Source of the DNA: an uncultured Pelagibacteraceae bacterium
GTDB taxonomy: Bacteria; Pseudomonadota; Alphaproteobacteria; Pelagibacterales; Pelagibacteraceae
Assembly: GCA_902611405.1 (NCBI GenBank)
Contig: CACLZL010000001.1
Location: 124,001-188,000, forward strand
Direction: 5' to 3'
Length of the DNA stretch: 64,000 bases
The first letter of the stretch is position 1, and each line of letters starts with the position of its first letter. Below are positions 30,804 through 38,129 of this stretch, in pieces. The position numbers and the translations under genes are program-made. The notes below the pieces were generated by a model, which saw only the letters and a program-made list of their open reading frames with translations, ran no database searches and had not been told where the DNA came from.

Positions 30804-31853
30804 ATGGCAAAAATTAAAATAAAAAGAGAGCGAGTTAAATTCGCTTCTGATAATGTTGCTGGTGCTTGTCCCGAGGTATTAGATGCAATTTTAAAAGCCA
30901 ATGAAGGGGATAGCACACCTTATGGGAATGACCCAATATCAACTGAATTACAAGATAAGTTTTCAAAAATCTTTGAAAAGGAAGTAATTGTTTTTCCAAC
31001 TGCCTCAGGTACTGCAGCTAATGCTTTAGCTTTATCAACTATGACACCTTCTTATGGAAATATTTATTGTCATAAGATGTCCCATATCAATACTGATGAA
31101 TGCGGTGCACCTGAATTTTATACAGGGGGTGGAAAGTTGATTCCTTTAAATGGGGTAATGGGAAAAATAACTGCAGAGGAGTTGGATCAATCGATAGGTG
31201 GAAAAGGGATTGTTCATCATACCCAGCCTTCATCAGTCAGTATCACTCAAGTGTGTGAAACAGGGGAAGTTTATCAATTAGATGAAATCAAAAAAATTGC
31301 AGAAGTTACCCATAAGCATAACTTAAATTTACATATGGATGGCGCTAGGTTTGCTAATGCATTGGTATCTTTAGATGTAACTCCTGCTGAAATGACATGG
31401 AAATCCGGGGTTGATGTATTGTCATTTGGAGCAACTAAAAATGGATGTTTAGCAGCTGAAGCAATTATATTTTTTAAGAAAGAATTAGTAGGAGATATTG
31501 CATTTTTAATGAAAAGAGCGGGGCATTTATTATCAAAAATGCGTTTTGTTTCTGCTCAACTCGATGCATACATTTCAAATGATGTTTGGTTGAGGAACGC
31601 AAAGCACGCTAATGCAATGGGTAAAAAATTAAGTGAAGGGTTAAGTAAGCATAATGATATTGAAATTGCTTATCCAACGGAAGCAAATGAAGTATTTGCA
31701 AAATTTTCAAGAGAAAAAATAGAACATCTTAATTCTGAAGGTTATAAAATGAATGAAGAAGAATTAGATGGAAAAGCGGTAAGATTAGTTGCTGCTTGGA
31801 ATACTAAAGATAGTGATGTTGATGAATTGTTAAATACAATTAAAGCTAACTAG
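30804..31853 (+). CDS. Low-specificity threonine aldolase / beta-eliminating lyase
   Basis: 'FASDNVAGACPEVLDAI', 'LNLHMDGARFANALVSL', PLP-Lys 'VDVLSFGATKNGCLAAEAI'. Confidence 0.88.
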   Translation: MAKIKIKRERVKFASDNVAGACPEVLDAILKANEGDSTPYGNDPISTELQDKFSKIFEKEVIVFPTASGTAANALALSTMTPSYGNIYCHKMSHINTDECGAPEFYTGGGKLIPLNGVMGKITAEELDQSIGGKGIVHHTQPSSVSITQVCETGEVYQLDEIKKIAEVTHKHNLNLHMDGARFANALVSLDVTPAEMTWKSGVDVLSFGATKNGCLAAEAIIFFKKELVGDIAFLMKRAGHLLSKMRFVSAQLDAYISNDVWLRNAKHANAMGKKLSEGLSKHNDIEIAYPTEANEVFAKFSREKIEHLNSEGYKMNEEELDGKAVRLVAAWNTKDSDVDELLNTIKAN

Positions 31854-32073
31854 GATTTTCTTTTAAAAACTCAATATATTTTATCACTTCATCATATTGT
31901 TCGTCAGGAATATCCTTGTAACTTGCATTGAATTTGCTTTTTACACATATAGCAACATGAGCGTAGGGGTTTCTTCCTTTAGGGTGATTTGGATGGTCCG
32001 GTAATTGCCCCACCAAATAATCGCCAGCTTCCTGAATAATTTTCCAGAGTTTCTGCGAGTTTTCTGGCGTCAT
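31846..32073 (-). CDS. Small ORF resembling phage antirepressor C-terminal-type domain
   Basis: 75 aa; 'NPYAHVAICVKSKFNASYKDIPDEQYDEVIKYIEFLK' recalls ORF6C/P22-antirepressor C-terminal domains by eye; overlaps threonine aldolase 3' end by 8 bp. Confidence 0.5.
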   Translation of the reverse strand: MTPENSQKLWKIIQEAGDYLVGQLPDHPNHPKGRNPYAHVAICVKSKFNASYKDIPDEQYDEVIKYIEFLKENPS

Positions 32074-32103
32074 AACTACTCAAACTTTGTTTTATCTCTA
32101 ATT

Positions 32104-32125
32104 TGCCTAGTCTGGTGCCTAGTTT
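32104..32125. repeat. TGCCTAGT x2 (12-nt period) including left copy of 11-bp repeat GTGCCTAGTTT (32115-32125)
   Basis: Exact copy of GTGCCTAGTTT at 36819-36829. Confidence 0.6.
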
Positions 32126-34617
32126 TTGGCAATTAAAGTTTCTTTTTTAATTACAGTATCGAATAAACCAATATCTTTCCCTTTATGCTTATACACACCA
32201 GTATAAGACAAGCTGGAGTCCTCATACCTTTTAAATTTATATACTGCATCATTCATTAAACTTGAATTAAATACATTAAGACTAACTAATAATTCAAAAT
32301 CTTTTACAGATATTCCAGTAACTTTTTTGAACAAATTTGGCTCTAATTCAGTTATTACATCTTTTAACCTTCTTTCTCTAAAATCAGTCAGATACATAAA
32401 AATAGGAATTCGTGTGGAAAATTTTATTAATTTTTCTTGTATCTGCTTTCTTAAACTTCTGTATTCTCTTTCTTCATCTGAAAGTTTTTTCTTTTCCTTA
32501 TTTGTAAGCTCAGTTTTATTCGCTTTTTCCTTAGTTTTTTTTATTGAGTCTGATCTATTTATTATTGTTTCAATATCTTTATTTAAGTTTCTAAAACCTT
32601 CAATATTCATCAAAGCTGCCATAGCTTTTTTATTGCTCATAAGTTTTGAAAGAGTTTTATTATCTACGTTAACTAATAATGCGCTTTCCCATCTTCTAGC
32701 TAATAAAGTTGCTGAAGTACCACTCATTGAAATATCCAATATACCAGCTGCATCCATTACTTTCATAGAGCTACCATCATAAGCAAGAACTGGTAAAAAT
32801 TTTGTAAATTCCTCAACTTTTTCCTCTGCACTCTTGTCTTCCGTAGATAATCTACAGCTATAATCTGAAATTTGTTTTAGTGCTCGATCTGGTGCAAAAT
32901 CAAAAATATAACATTTTTCTTTTATAATTTGTTTCTTGTTAGGAGATAAATTATCAGGGTTATGAATTTCCCAAGGAGATTGAACCCTAAATGCTGCTTG
33001 AAAATAAGTCTCAGGACTTGATAAATTTCTAAGCATAAAAATTCCTGACCATGGTTTGACTGTTACTCCAGTTGTCAGTTTTCCACATGATAGAGTTATT
33101 GTCTTAGATTTAAGAGGTTCATCCATTGCCAACTGAACTGGTTTCAAAGCTTTAACCCCTATACCTGCATTTTTGCCTGCTGCTACAATAATTTTGTAAT
33201 CATTGTAAAAAGTGTTTTGTCTTTCCATTAGTAAATTTTTCATAGCATAGCAAGACGCAATGGTTGGCAAAAACCAGAAAGTATGATTCAAATATTTTAA
33301 AAGTCTTGAATCATAAAATGGTAATGGTGGTTTTTTTCCTCCAAGCTTTAAATTATCTTTGGTGGTTTCAAGATAAGAGCCTCTAATTAAATCTAACCAT
33401 TTTTGGACATCATTTTTATATAAAAAAGATGCTTTATCTTTTTCACCTTCAGCAGAAAAAAATGTATTTAAATCAAATTCATCGTATTCTTTATTCATTG
33501 CTATTTCTCTAATGGAGTCAGGTAGTTGATAAGTCATAAGTATCATTTTTGGCAAGGCAGCATAAGGGTTACTATTTCCTTTCCAATTAATCTTAGCACT
33601 TTGCTCATCCGTATAAGTCCAATTAAAAATCTGTTCTTCTATAAATTCACCTGACTCAATTGCTCTAAAAGGTGTTCCAGATAGGTATAAATAATGATCT
33701 GTAGTTATAGGAAGAATATCTTCATTAAAATATTTAATTCCAGCTCCTTCATGAAAATTTAATTCTTCGGTACTTTCTGACTCAAATAGATCTTTAGCGT
33801 TTTCTCTCCAAGCACCATAGTGATACTCGTCAAAAATAACACAATCCCAATTTATTTCATGAACCCACTCATTTTTCGGTTTAATTCCACCTGCTTTATT
33901 TTTTCCTAAAAAATCTTGAAAAGAACCAAAACAAACAATTGGTTTTTTTGTTTTTATTTTTTTTTTGGTAGCATTTGTTTTACTTATAAATTCCCAACCA
34001 TCAAAATCTGTATGAGTTAGTAGATCTTGTTCCCAAGCATTTTCTACGGCAGGCTTAAAAGTTAAAACTAATATTTTTTTCCAATTCATTTTAAGAGCTA
34101 ATTGGTAAGCAGTAAAAGTTTTTCCAAATCTCATTTTAGCATTCCATAGAAAGTGTGGAGTTTTAGATGGCTCATCTTTTTTAAAGGAGTCAAAATATTT
34201 TTTTGTTTTATTAATTGCCTCTATTTGTTCAGGTCGCATTTTAAAAGATAAACTTCTTCCAAATTCTAAATTTCCACCAGATTGCAAAAATCTAATTGAT
34301 GACTTAACATCTTGAACAGTACATCTAAACCATTCTCCTGCTAAATTCAAAAATCCCTTATTTTTTAAAATCTTGTGAATTTCTATATCTGTAAATGTTG
34401 ATCCATCATTTTTGACAGCTGACTCATCTATCAAGATTTCATAAGGAGCATCACCTGGTCTTAAAGTTGGATATTGTTGTCTAACCCTTTGTTTAACATC
34501 TTGAGTAGTGTAGCCAATTTTTAACAAACCTCTGTACTGAGGGTTTAAATCTTTGTAGGCATAAATTCTTGGAGAAATGTCTTTAATAACATTATTAAAA
34601 TATTTTTCACTCATCAA
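32119..34617 (-). CDS. GIY-YIG/T5orf172-like nuclease domain fused to SF2 (DEAD/DEAH-like) helicase; restriction-type protein
   Basis: N-term 'IYAYKDLNPQYRGLLKIGYTTQDVKQRVRQQYP...AGEWFRC'; helicase motifs 'NAKMRFGKTFTAYQLA', 'VIFDEYHYG', 'YLSGTPFRAI', 'YFQAAFRVQSPW'. Confidence 0.82.
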   Translation of the reverse strand: MMSEKYFNNVIKDISPRIYAYKDLNPQYRGLLKIGYTTQDVKQRVRQQYPTLRPGDAPYEILIDESAVKNDGSTFTDIEIHKILKNKGFLNLAGEWFRCTVQDVKSSIRFLQSGGNLEFGRSLSFKMRPEQIEAINKTKKYFDSFKKDEPSKTPHFLWNAKMRFGKTFTAYQLALKMNWKKILVLTFKPAVENAWEQDLLTHTDFDGWEFISKTNATKKKIKTKKPIVCFGSFQDFLGKNKAGGIKPKNEWVHEINWDCVIFDEYHYGAWRENAKDLFESESTEELNFHEGAGIKYFNEDILPITTDHYLYLSGTPFRAIESGEFIEEQIFNWTYTDEQSAKINWKGNSNPYAALPKMILMTYQLPDSIREIAMNKEYDEFDLNTFFSAEGEKDKASFLYKNDVQKWLDLIRGSYLETTKDNLKLGGKKPPLPFYDSRLLKYLNHTFWFLPTIASCYAMKNLLMERQNTFYNDYKIIVAAGKNAGIGVKALKPVQLAMDEPLKSKTITLSCGKLTTGVTVKPWSGIFMLRNLSSPETYFQAAFRVQSPWEIHNPDNLSPNKKQIIKEKCYIFDFAPDRALKQISDYSCRLSTEDKSAEEKVEEFTKFLPVLAYDGSSMKVMDAAGILDISMSGTSATLLARRWESALLVNVDNKTLSKLMSNKKAMAALMNIEGFRNLNKDIETIINRSDSIKKTKEKANKTELTNKEKKKLSDEEREYRSLRKQIQEKLIKFSTRIPIFMYLTDFRERRLKDVITELEPNLFKKVTGISVKDFELLVSLNVFNSSLMNDAVYKFKRYEDSSLSYTGVYKHKGKDIGLFDTVIKKETLIAKN

Positions 34618-36121
34618 AATTTTTTATTAATTCTTCAATAATAGAGATCTCATTACTATCTAATTTAAAGTTCTTAAATAATTCTTTATCTTTAATTTCT
34701 TTCTCAAAATCTACCTGTGGTACGAAACAAAATTTTTCTCTTGAAATATCTTGAGATGTAAGAGCTTGAAATAACATAAATCTTACAAACCTTGTTTTTA
34801 AATATGTTGATAGATTCTTTGCTTGCTTGAAGGTTTTAAAACTACCTGCTACAAGATAACTTTGAGTGCAAATAGTGTTTGGTTTTATAATTTCTATTTT
34901 TGAGAAAACTCTTCTTTTTCCACTTTTGTCTGCCTGTCCCGCATGTTCTGATGTAGCTTTTGAGAATATAACTTTATAGAGATCAATTAAGTCTCTTCCC
35001 GAGGTTACATTATCTTTATTTGTATAAGTTAATCCCTTACTTGTATAAACTTCAACATCATTTTTACCTGGTTTATCTTTATCCCAAAAATTAGTATGTA
35101 AACCAAACGGAGTTTGTGGACCTACAATCTCTGATAACATTTTTCCGGATTTATTATTTTTAATAACTTTATCAATAATTTTATCCGCATCATTATATCT
35201 TGTAAAAATATGTCTTTTAGCCAAGTTACGCATTGTAGTACTTTCATTTCCGTTCTGCATGCTAGTAAATTTGCAATCGCCGTTATAGTTTTTGTCCCAC
35301 AAAAAATACATTGCACCACCAGCAACTTCTACTCCGTTAAAACAATCTCTTGAGTCAGGATAATCTACCATTTCTTTAATTCTTTTATCTTTCAACATTT
35401 TATCTCTGAAACCATCTATACCCCTTCCACCAGTGAACCATCGTGAGGGAATTATCATTGAAACGTAAGAAGGTTTAAGGCTTATTGCCATTTCAACAAA
35501 TTTATGAAAGATTAAAATTGCGTAATTCTTTTTTTCGACACCAACATTTAATTGATAGGGAGGATTTCCAATTATTACGTCAAATTTCATTTGATTTTCT
35601 TTGAATAAATTATTCTGATGAATAAATTGATACGCATAACTTTCATATTTGTTACCTCTGCCTAATATTCGCTTGTTTGCACCACAGTATATACAAACTT
35701 CATCTTTCCAGATATGTTTATCTTCATCATATCTAATATTTCCTTCTTCGTTGTTAAAAATTGATGCGATAGAATATTTATTTTTGGCGTTTTTTGAACA
35801 GTACAAAGATCTTCTAGCAATCAAAGATGTTAACTCGGTTGTAGCAATTCCAAATACTTGATTCTTTAAAATATGATTTATTCTTTTTTCCAGATTGGGG
35901 ATTTCCTTTTCTAAGCCCAAGATGAGTCTTTTAGTAATTTCTCTTAAAAAAACTCCAGATTTAGTACATGGATCAAGAAATTTAGAATTTTTATTTTTCC
36001 ATAAAGACTTAGGTAGCTTATCTAGCATAGAATTAGCTAAAGTGGGTGATGTAAATACTTCATCACTGCTAAGATTAGCAATACAATTAAGAACATCTGG
36101 ATTATAATTTACATTAAACAT
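34607..36121 (-). CDS. N6-adenine DNA methyltransferase (Eco57I-like) catalytic subunit
   Basis: 'FLDPCTKSGVFLREITKRL', catalytic 'FDVIIGNPPYQLNV'; overlaps the helicase gene by 11 bp. Confidence 0.85.
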   Translation of the reverse strand: MFNVNYNPDVLNCIANLSSDEVFTSPTLANSMLDKLPKSLWKNKNSKFLDPCTKSGVFLREITKRLILGLEKEIPNLEKRINHILKNQVFGIATTELTSLIARRSLYCSKNAKNKYSIASIFNNEEGNIRYDEDKHIWKDEVCIYCGANKRILGRGNKYESYAYQFIHQNNLFKENQMKFDVIIGNPPYQLNVGVEKKNYAILIFHKFVEMAISLKPSYVSMIIPSRWFTGGRGIDGFRDKMLKDKRIKEMVDYPDSRDCFNGVEVAGGAMYFLWDKNYNGDCKFTSMQNGNESTTMRNLAKRHIFTRYNDADKIIDKVIKNNKSGKMLSEIVGPQTPFGLHTNFWDKDKPGKNDVEVYTSKGLTYTNKDNVTSGRDLIDLYKVIFSKATSEHAGQADKSGKRRVFSKIEIIKPNTICTQSYLVAGSFKTFKQAKNLSTYLKTRFVRFMLFQALTSQDISREKFCFVPQVDFEKEIKDKELFKNFKLDSNEISIIEELIKNFDE

Positions 36122-36755
36122 TTTCTATTTCTGTATAAATAATTGGTTCAAAAACTTTTATTGGAGGTGGAATAATAACCTCTTCACCTTTTTCAGAGAA
36201 TAACGTGTCTTCTTCATATGGTCTATAAGATAGTAGGTCAGCAAGTGTATAATCTGATCTTTGGACCAAACTACCTTTTACAAAACTCCACTCAGAAAAT
36301 ATAATAGGTTTTTTTTTATTAGGTTCTGTTAAAGTTAAAGCATCTCCCCAGAGTATATTTCTTGAGATTATATATTTAATTGAAGATAAAAACTTGGAAT
36401 TAGACGTAGAAAAAAATTTTTTTTCGTATATATCCTTGAAATGTTTAAAAAGTCTTTCCCTGCAACTTAGCACATTATCTTTTAGTATCTCTACACCATA
36501 TAAGCTACTTATAACTTGAAAAGAATATCTCTCATACTCTATTTGACTATTGCTATATTTTTTTTTTACAATCTCTAACTTTCGTTCTAAAACTTTTATA
36601 AGAAAATTTCCATCACCACATGCTGGCTCTAAAAACCTTGATTCTAAACGCTCTGTTTCATCTTTTACAAGATTAAGCATAGACTCAACTTCTTTTGGGT
36701 TGGTAAATACTTCTCCAAAATCTTTAATTCTGTTTTTATTTTTTTTTTCTGACAC
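36114..36755 (-). CDS. N6-adenine DNA methyltransferase-like small subunit (SAM motif, no NPPY seen)
   Basis: 'DFGEVFTNPKEVESMLNLV...SRFLEPACGDGNFLIKVLERKL'; translation lacks D/N-PPY; overlaps next gene by 8 bp. Confidence 0.72.
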   Translation of the reverse strand: MSEKKNKNRIKDFGEVFTNPKEVESMLNLVKDETERLESRFLEPACGDGNFLIKVLERKLEIVKKKYSNSQIEYERYSFQVISSLYGVEILKDNVLSCRERLFKHFKDIYEKKFFSTSNSKFLSSIKYIISRNILWGDALTLTEPNKKKPIIFSEWSFVKGSLVQRSDYTLADLLSYRPYEEDTLFSEKGEEVIIPPPIKVFEPIIYTEIENV

Positions 36756-36818
36756 AATTTAATTTAACAAAAAGTTAAAAATTTAACCATTTGTTTTAAT
36801 TTTAATTTGTGTTATTTA

Positions 36819-36829
36819 GTGCCTAGTTT
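36819..36829. repeat. Right copy of 11-bp direct repeat GTGCCTAGTTT
   Basis: Exact copy of 32115-32125, ~65 bp upstream of first MTase-like start codon. Confidence 0.6.
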
Positions 36830-36941
36830 GCTCCTTTAATTAATGATCTAACTTGAAAACATAAATTAAACAATTTTGAAGCAAAATTTAAACATAAGAT
36901 AAAGACGAGAAAAAAAGTATGAATATTATTAATCTAAATAC

Positions 36942-37409
36942 TTATCTAAAAAATAAACTTTTTCTAATATCTATAATTTCTCTGATTTGTTTGTCTTTAA
37001 TAGCATTCCAAGAAACAAATAAAGTACATAATTGATATAAGGCAAATATCTCGTTTTTTTGATTTTGAGATAAATCACTATCTGCCTCTACATAGTTTTC
37101 AAAATAAGAAATATTATTTCTCGCACAATTTAAATAATATTTACAAGCATCTGTTACTGTAGCCGTTGACCACCAGTTTGAATCTCTTAAAAGAGCAGAT
37201 ATTTCTTGGTAGAAAGAACTTGTTTCAGAAATAGCCAAATCCTTTTGAACATTTTCTGAAAATTGATCTAATTCAAATTGAATTAAAGCTAATATCTTTT
37301 TTTCGCTACTTCTCTTTACAAGTAGTTCAATGACGTTTTTATACGACATTGATTGGATTTTATTCCAATTATCAAAAAAATCGTTTGGTGCTTTATTTGA
37401 ATCTCCCAT
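36942..37409 (-). CDS. Hypothetical protein
   Basis: 155-aa uninterrupted ORF, mixed helical composition, no family recognised. Confidence 0.55.
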   Translation of the reverse strand: MGDSNKAPNDFFDNWNKIQSMSYKNVIELLVKRSSEKKILALIQFELDQFSENVQKDLAISETSSFYQEISALLRDSNWWSTATVTDACKYYLNCARNNISYFENYVEADSDLSQNQKNEIFALYQLCTLFVSWNAIKDKQIREIIDIRKSLFFR

Positions 37410-37445: not shown

Positions 37446-38129
37446 TTATTTATTTAAAAAATTAGCCTCAAAAGCAATATTTAAAAAAGACCTAATATTC
37501 TCTAAGGAATTAATTTTGGATTGATTGATTTCTCCATTTTCTTTTATTTTAGGAATTAATTTAAAAATATCATTAATAATATTCTTTCTTGTTTCTTGAA
37601 CTACTTCTTTAATTTTTGATACTCCTAAATTTAAACAACATTCCTCAAAGATTATATGTGTTAAAAAAGATATCGAATAAGTTTGAGCGATTAAAGCACC
37701 ATTAGAAAAATCTTTTTCTTGAGAAATGCCTGATTTAGAAATGATTGGGTCATAAAGAATCAAATATTTTAAGTAGTTATTTAAATTATTCTCAGTCAGA
37801 TTAGTAAAAGGCAAATATCTCATATTACTTAGATCTTGAGGATCAGGATAAAGTATAATTGGAAACAACGAGGTTGCTGTTAAAACCTCATTAAATATAA
37901 TATTTTTAGTTGTTTTAATCTGGTGGGTTAAATCTTTACTTTTAGTAATTTGTAAAGAGTAATTTTTAACAATTTTTATAATTTCTTTTGCTTTAATTTT
38001 ATCAGGATCATTTTGAATCCAGCTATACATTGGATCGTGTAATCTTTCATCTAGCTCTTCAAGATTTAAATTTTTAAACTTATTTATTGTTTCTTTACAA
38101 ATTTGAAAAATAAAATCTTGATCCAACAT
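37446..38129 (-). CDS. Hypothetical protein
   Basis: 227-aa ORF, no family recognised; same strand as R-M-like operon. Confidence 0.6.
   Translation of the reverse strand: MLDQDFIFQICKETINKFKNLNLEELDERLHDPMYSWIQNDPDKIKAKEIIKIVKNYSLQITKSKDLTHQIKTTKNIIFNEVLTATSLFPIILYPDPQDLSNMRYLPFTNLTENNLNNYLKYLILYDPIISKSGISQEKDFSNGALIAQTYSISFLTHIIFEECCLNLGVSKIKEVVQETRKNIINDIFKLIPKIKENGEINQSKINSLENIRSFLNIAFEANFLNK

Follow-up and report, generated by a model that had tools for sequence, protein, structure and literature searches.

The 64,000-nucleotide stretch analysed here (the window; positions 124,001 to 188,000 of contig CACLZL010000001.1, assembly GCA_902611405.1) comes from an uncultured Pelagibacteraceae bacterium, whose genome (G000; 1.22 Mb, 88% complete) has Pelagibacteraceae (SAR11) single-cell genomes as its relatives in GTDB, and it carries a restriction-modification (R-M) module of three overlapping, intact minus-strand open reading frames (ORFs) between two copies of the 11-mer GTGCCTAGTTT. 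The module encodes a methyltransferase-like subunit of 213 aa (36114-36755), with the S-adenosylmethionine (SAM) motif FLEPACGxGNFL and no NPPY (PADLOC MTase_II, 7.7e-13), an Eco57I-type adenine methyltransferase of 504 aa (34607-36121), with DP..KSG and GNPPY motifs (Pfam Eco57I, 6.7e-34), and an 832-aa restriction subunit (32119-34617) that joins a T5orf172 (GIY-YIG-type) nuclease to a superfamily 2 (SF2) helicase (Pfam T5orf172, 8.8e-10; ResIII, 2e-9). A preliminary description, made from the sequence alone, had placed the same three ORFs with the same overlaps, and its identification of a GIY-YIG/SF2 helicase, an NPPY methyltransferase and a small methyltransferase-like protein agrees with the Pfam and PADLOC matches.

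The 832-aa protein matches the N-terminal part of a PADLOC type IIG model (6.4e-33) and the 504-aa protein its C-terminal part (5.6e-37), with the helicase and Eco57I methylase chains aligning to residues 149-803 and 863-1352 of one 1359-aa model, PDLC03626. In contrast to the type IIG R-M systems described by that model, nuclease and methyltransferase are not in one polypeptide, the system being divided between two chains, the first with an N-terminal T5orf172 nuclease, and supplemented by the 213-aa subunit, which indicates that the predicted operon encodes a IIG-like system in variant form, split and with three subunits. The catalytic motifs KIGYT..EWF, KMRFGKT, DEYH, SGTPF, FLDP..KSG, and GNPPY are conserved among homologues, with those of the 504-aa methyltransferase invariant in three genomes and the SAM motif of the 213-aa subunit invariant among its homologues, and the operon may well be active in restriction. 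None of the three proteins matched a solved structure by sequence at E<=0.01.

Within the window the 11-mer occurs only at 32115-32125 (plus strand), where it contains the TAG stop codon of the helicase-nuclease gene, and at 36819-36829 (0.05 matches in shuffled sequence, with two reached in 0 of 100 shuffles). These are also the only two copies in the 1.22 Mb genome, for which base composition predicts ~0.36, so the possibility raised in the preliminary description that the repeat might be common across the genome did not materialise. The partial third copy that it reported, TGCCTAGT, is likewise present at 32104-32111, 12 bp to the left of the next.

Immediately to the left lies a conserved gene of 75 aa (31846-32073, minus strand), which recurs in many congeners and is the target of integration, its 5′ end forming the core of an attachment site (att; left core, attL, 32015-32073). 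In the closest empty site (G058, flanks 93–96% identical), the sequence found 32 bp after the start of this gene is that of window position 36942, with window bases 32053-36941 missing; the att arms are likewise missing from three further relatives (G070, G082, and G012), and the 11-mer is absent from all four genomes. The preliminary description had predicted a single 11-mer at the empty site and breakpoints at the repeat, whereas the empty relatives carry none and the breakpoints in G058, at 32052 and 36942, lie outside both copies; a target-site duplication of GTGCCTAGTTT was rejected on these grounds. Beyond 32052 the window resembles instead the attachment site of a circular viral contig (attP of L076) and the attL of G088, with window bases 32053-32073 encoding MTPENSQ, unlike the native MNKENAS, and codons 2–7 (TPENSQ rather than NKENAS) resembling those two sites. 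Such swapped start codons are the expectation if an element supplied the gene with a new 5′ end. On the other side, the right flank (36930-37409, minus strand), with an ORF of 155 aa (36942-37409), is native sequence rather than cargo as judged by its position in G058, G088, and G122, adjoining the start of the 75-aa gene in G058 and a truncated copy of the core in G088 and G122. A 227-aa ORF of no known family at 37446-38129, missing from G058, where the region matches otherwise, marks a second small indel beside this site.

The 75-aa gene is a hotspot for cassettes of this kind. A query spanning 30804-32110 has full or partial matches in 98 of 151 congener genomes, many of which contain a second match, kilobases away, to the 5′ end of the 75-aa gene only (about window 32009-32099); in cassette-bearing genomes, which number in the dozens, the first ~59 bp of the gene recur 0.8–8.6 kb away, together with complete att ends. 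In Pelagibacter, 53 intervals with varied cargo were mapped between successive core copies, with up to three cassettes in tandem. The left side of a cassette consists, in order, of the intact 75-aa gene (minus strand), ~25 bp, TTGTTTTATCTC, an 8-bp repeat (X), a spacer, a second X, and the cargo. The right side consists of TTGATTTATCTC, X, a spacer, X, a GCTTAAA...TTTAAGC segment, three to four TAGTGTG repeats, and a truncated core, which is a fresh copy of the first ~59 bp of the 75-aa gene; after it comes either a further cassette or native sequence. Right ends related to these turned up in 89 of 399 Pelagibacter genomes (E<=1e-3), and the module is thus not unusual, contrary to what had been supposed. 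Cassette-type right-end or core sequence also occurs at a second locus in three genomes (L049 in G148:C4, G348:C7, and G274:C5), that of G148 lying near pst/phoU genes, apparently cargo-free and outside the main hotspot.

The left arm of the window (32078-32125) follows this order closely, with TTGTTTTATCTC followed by X at 32104-32111, the spacer CTGG, and X at 32116-32123, and a hidden Markov model (HMM) of left ends built from other genomes matches window 32078-32124 with E=4.3e-8, with the right-end HMM also matching this arm (32083-32137, E=5.9e-5). At the right arm (36790-36829) one X is intact (36820-36827) and the first copy is degraded; an alignment with the left arm covers 40 nt at 78% identity (32086-32125 versus 36790-36829), of which the part outside the 11-mer is no more similar than shuffled sequence. 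The left end of the window cassette therefore reads as a clear member of the cassette family, and the right end, complete as an attR in most mapped relatives and retaining in the window only the X 11-mer, appears decayed, in that the flank scores no better than shuffled sequence and the truncated core copy is missing.

The X repeats differ between cassettes and agree within them. In 50 cassettes readable at both ends, drawn from 60 congener loci, the variable bases of X are identical at the two ends in 42, compared with 3.8 expected and a maximum of 13 in 20,000 permutations; a first set of 18 cassettes had given 14 matches versus 1.3 expected. The X pair of the window also flanks another cassette on both sides, L039 of G065, which encodes a 1033-aa Eco57I-type R-M protein, and GTGCCTAGTTT occurs twice in that genome, only at the ends of this cassette. 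By these comparisons X is best described as a repeat specific to each cassette and located in the arms of an attachment site for a tyrosine recombinase, with the individual repeats being putative arm-binding sites for an integrase.

A candidate source of such an integrase is provided by three circular viral contigs of ~9 kb (L076, L077, and L090; terminal repeats of 29, 81, and 98 bp), in which an attP composed of the same core with X pairs on both sides lies beside a gene for a tyrosine integrase of 571–581 aa. The integrase of L076 is a 581-aa tyrosine recombinase, and those of L077 and L090 are 62–66% identical to it, with the X repeats on the integrase side overlapping the start of the integrase gene. 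Profile matches in L090 include a PHROG integrase (6e-26), a primase (1.8e-24), a RusA-like resolvase (1.4e-11), and a terminase small subunit (1.7e-5), and none of the L090 proteins tested matched a capsid or tail protein. In possessing an integrase, a primase/helicase, a resolvase, and a terminase-small-subunit-like gene, with no structural gene among the proteins tested, the circular elements correspond in gene content to phage satellites. Their X repeats differ from one another (ACTCGAA, ACTATATC/ACTATAGC, and ACTAGATC), and each type is also found in cassettes. Furthermore, a satellite relative with the same integrase type is integrated in G158 (AG-430-A09) beside the same pair of threonine-aldolase and 75-aa genes. 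No named phage with this integrase was found.

The cassettes themselves gave no integrase match in any of the 53 intervals when searched by tblastn or HMM with the satellite integrases and the host Xer-like recombinase. A chromosomal integrase of the host was also rejected as the mover, with none matched in G000 (88% complete), as was a tRNA-targeted island, the window being without a tRNA, and a ~325-aa recombinase present in many congeners showed no link to the locus. More distantly related integrases (25–33% identical) adjoin tRNA-Leu or tRNA-Ser-like sequence in G120, G167, and G201 (L086-L088) and in L091, where X-like tandem repeats proper to each were seen by eye, with no statistics applied, next to the integrase start; arm repeats may be a general architecture of this integrase family.

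Taken together, the anatomy of the ends, the hotspot and its arrays, the matching of X, the lack of cassette integrases, the satellite attP, and the satellite relative at the same gene make it probable that the R-M module is a hitchhiker, a cassette that lacks an integrase and is moved in trans by satellite-like elements, inserted in the 75-aa gene at its 5′ end. The cassette ends would mimic the attP of the ~9-kb satellites, in which the gene 5′ core is flanked by family-specific X pairs, and a satellite integrase of matching X specificity would act in trans to recombine the 75-aa gene, at its 5′ end, with the attP of the cassette. The cassette would thereby supply the gene with a new start and promoter, and the old 5′ end would be left truncated on the far side of the insert, open to integration of a further cassette. 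Packaging of the cassettes by a helper phage may form part of the same cycle. As the right core copy has been lost in the window, the copy found here is probably now fixed. A broader proposal, that SAR11 possesses an integron-like cassette system at one gene, in which satellite integrases shuffle cassettes in trans and X serves as the address of the helper, is put forward tentatively, and we lean slightly away from it at present.

Several observations weigh against this reading. At the right end of the window cassette the right-end HMM gives only E=3.2 (36817-36846), neither the conserved right-end segment nor the TAGTGTG repeats nor a truncated core copy is present, and similarity beyond the 11-mer is not above that of shuffled sequence (P 0.23 and 0.43), so that homology of the right arm past the 11-mer was rejected. 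X is mismatched in 8 of the 50 cassettes, and the empty sites of the few relatives that have them could alternatively reflect loss. An autonomous satellite with the X of the window was sought among the viral contigs and rejected, all 23 contigs with the pattern being unrelated. Additionally, the three satellites do not show at their attP the GCTTAAA...TTTAAGC segment common to the cassettes, and the cassettes may consequently be a lineage with a helper of their own, as yet unseen. No excision or transfer of a cassette was observed.

The autonomous elements have the same core and X arms as the cassettes, one of their relatives occupies the same site in G158, and the right end of the window cassette is decayed, all of which would also be accounted for if a ~9-kb satellite had lost its integrase and replication genes in place, keeping its ends and the R-M genes (a cis-mobilizable element, CIME, arising by deletion). 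However, neither tblastn nor HMM detected an integrase remnant in the 53 intervals of 0.8–8.6 kb, and the right-end segment that the cassettes have in common was not found at the satellite attP; together these points favour a distinct cassette lineage over independent decays and leave such an origin unlikely. SAR11 recombines extensively, and ordinary homologous recombination between flanking genes could exchange cargo whilst leaving att-like ends as relics without a present role, as the common flanks of the mapped cassettes and the decayed right end of the window cassette might suggest. This we consider very improbable given the swapping of gene 5′ ends and start codons at the core, the X pairs matching at both cassette ends, and the existence of extrachromosomal circles with the same attP.

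The model of the preliminary description, a transposon-like island that duplicated a GTGCCTAGTTT target at its exact ends, draws on an 11-mer that is unique in the genome and present on both sides, yet it can hardly be reconciled with empty relatives that lack the 11-mer and break outside both copies, with two tandem copies on the left side, with the want of a transposase, or with X varying among other cassettes so as to match within the cassette and not the target. Its view of the module as a discrete mobile defence cassette holds insofar as this is a mobile-type cassette with a meaningful repeat, and fails in taking that repeat as the exact boundary: the 11-mer is an element-specific arm repeat just inside the true cassette ends and part of the recombination site.

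The cargo of other cassettes includes an EcoRI-type methylase with a GmrSD/HNH protein, Z1/ResIII, HATPase, and sigma-region-4 proteins, as well as a DctP transporter protein, a short-chain dehydrogenase/reductase (SDR) enzyme, and small MKKLLGIV-type secreted proteins. Many cassettes of 1–2 kb (L034, L037, L038, L043, and L045) encode secreted proteins starting MKKLLGIV/L, and some cassette left ends retain a stub of this type of signal-peptide start. One cassette (L036, G129:C16, 6888-13735) carries a TRAP-type transporter operon and a hydantoinase-like gene, indicating that cargo is not only defence. The largest interval, of 8.6 kb (L167, G152:C26, 2630-11268), encodes a pair of proteins resembling caspases (peptidase C14-like), of which one has MORN-like repeats, together with a sigma-like protein and a trypsin-like protease, all recognised by eye, and is possibly a defence or signalling system. 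The three-gene R-M order of the window recurs in G128 and G212 at other loci (46–67% identity) without convincing cassette ends, from which it follows that the operon also moves by other routes, and the helicase-methylase pair is also found in G588, an alphaproteobacterium of another family. In G128 and G212 (L096 and L097) the operon lies in other islands with further defence-like genes, and some neighbours in L096 resemble hotspot cargo, such as an MFEWIKKKI protein similar to one in L043.

CIMEs, cis-mobilizable elements that undergo tandem accretion and have been described as decayed integrative and conjugative or mobilizable elements (ICEs/IMEs) (PMC5704250), are likewise att-flanked, integrase-less, and arrayed in tandem at one target gene, and the window cassette has an attL and contains, besides its three R-M genes, no gene for integration, transfer or replication. 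Unlike CIMEs, the elements described here are many cassettes of 0.8–8.6 kb with specialised common ends, and the related autonomous element is satellite-like rather than an ICE or IME. Marine phage satellites, comprising the PICMIs, which sit at fis, have not been found more than once per genome, and carry defence cargo (PMC10803314), and the VEIMEs and tycheposons named in PMC11389934, resemble the SAR11 elements in small size, a tyrosine integrase, an AEP/DUF5906 primase, the lack of capsid genes, a fixed site, and defence cargo; the SAR11 elements differ in host group, target gene, and integrase, and the window cassette itself has neither integrase nor replication genes. The dusA-specific genomic islands (PMC4482086) also insert in the 5′ end of a gene and give it a new one, but encode their own integrase and target dusA/dusB. 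Integron cassettes and clusters of attC sites lacking integron-integrases (CALIN) (PMC11389934) are comparable as cargo arrays without an integrase, presumably mobilised in trans, whereas no IntI match was found in G000 (88% complete), the ends showed no sign of attC, the folding of which was not modelled, and the site here is a gene 5′ end with pairs of X arms. No report of the SAR11 hotspot combination was found in the literature searched, whose scope excluded subscription papers, among them the primary VEIME and tycheposon papers. Single parts thus resemble CIMEs, marine satellites, CALIN, and 5′-end gene targeting, with their combination in SAR11 apparently new within that literature.

SAR11 bacteria are among the most abundant in the ocean, and the usual account of them is one of streamlining and few mobile elements. 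If X specifies the helper, recombination would be expected between cassettes and helpers that have X in common, and not between others. Dozens of small cassettes at one common hotspot, linked to a satellite-like integrase, would offer SAR11 a concrete route of gene flow, by which R-M systems, other defence-like genes, transporters, and secreted proteins would be moved.

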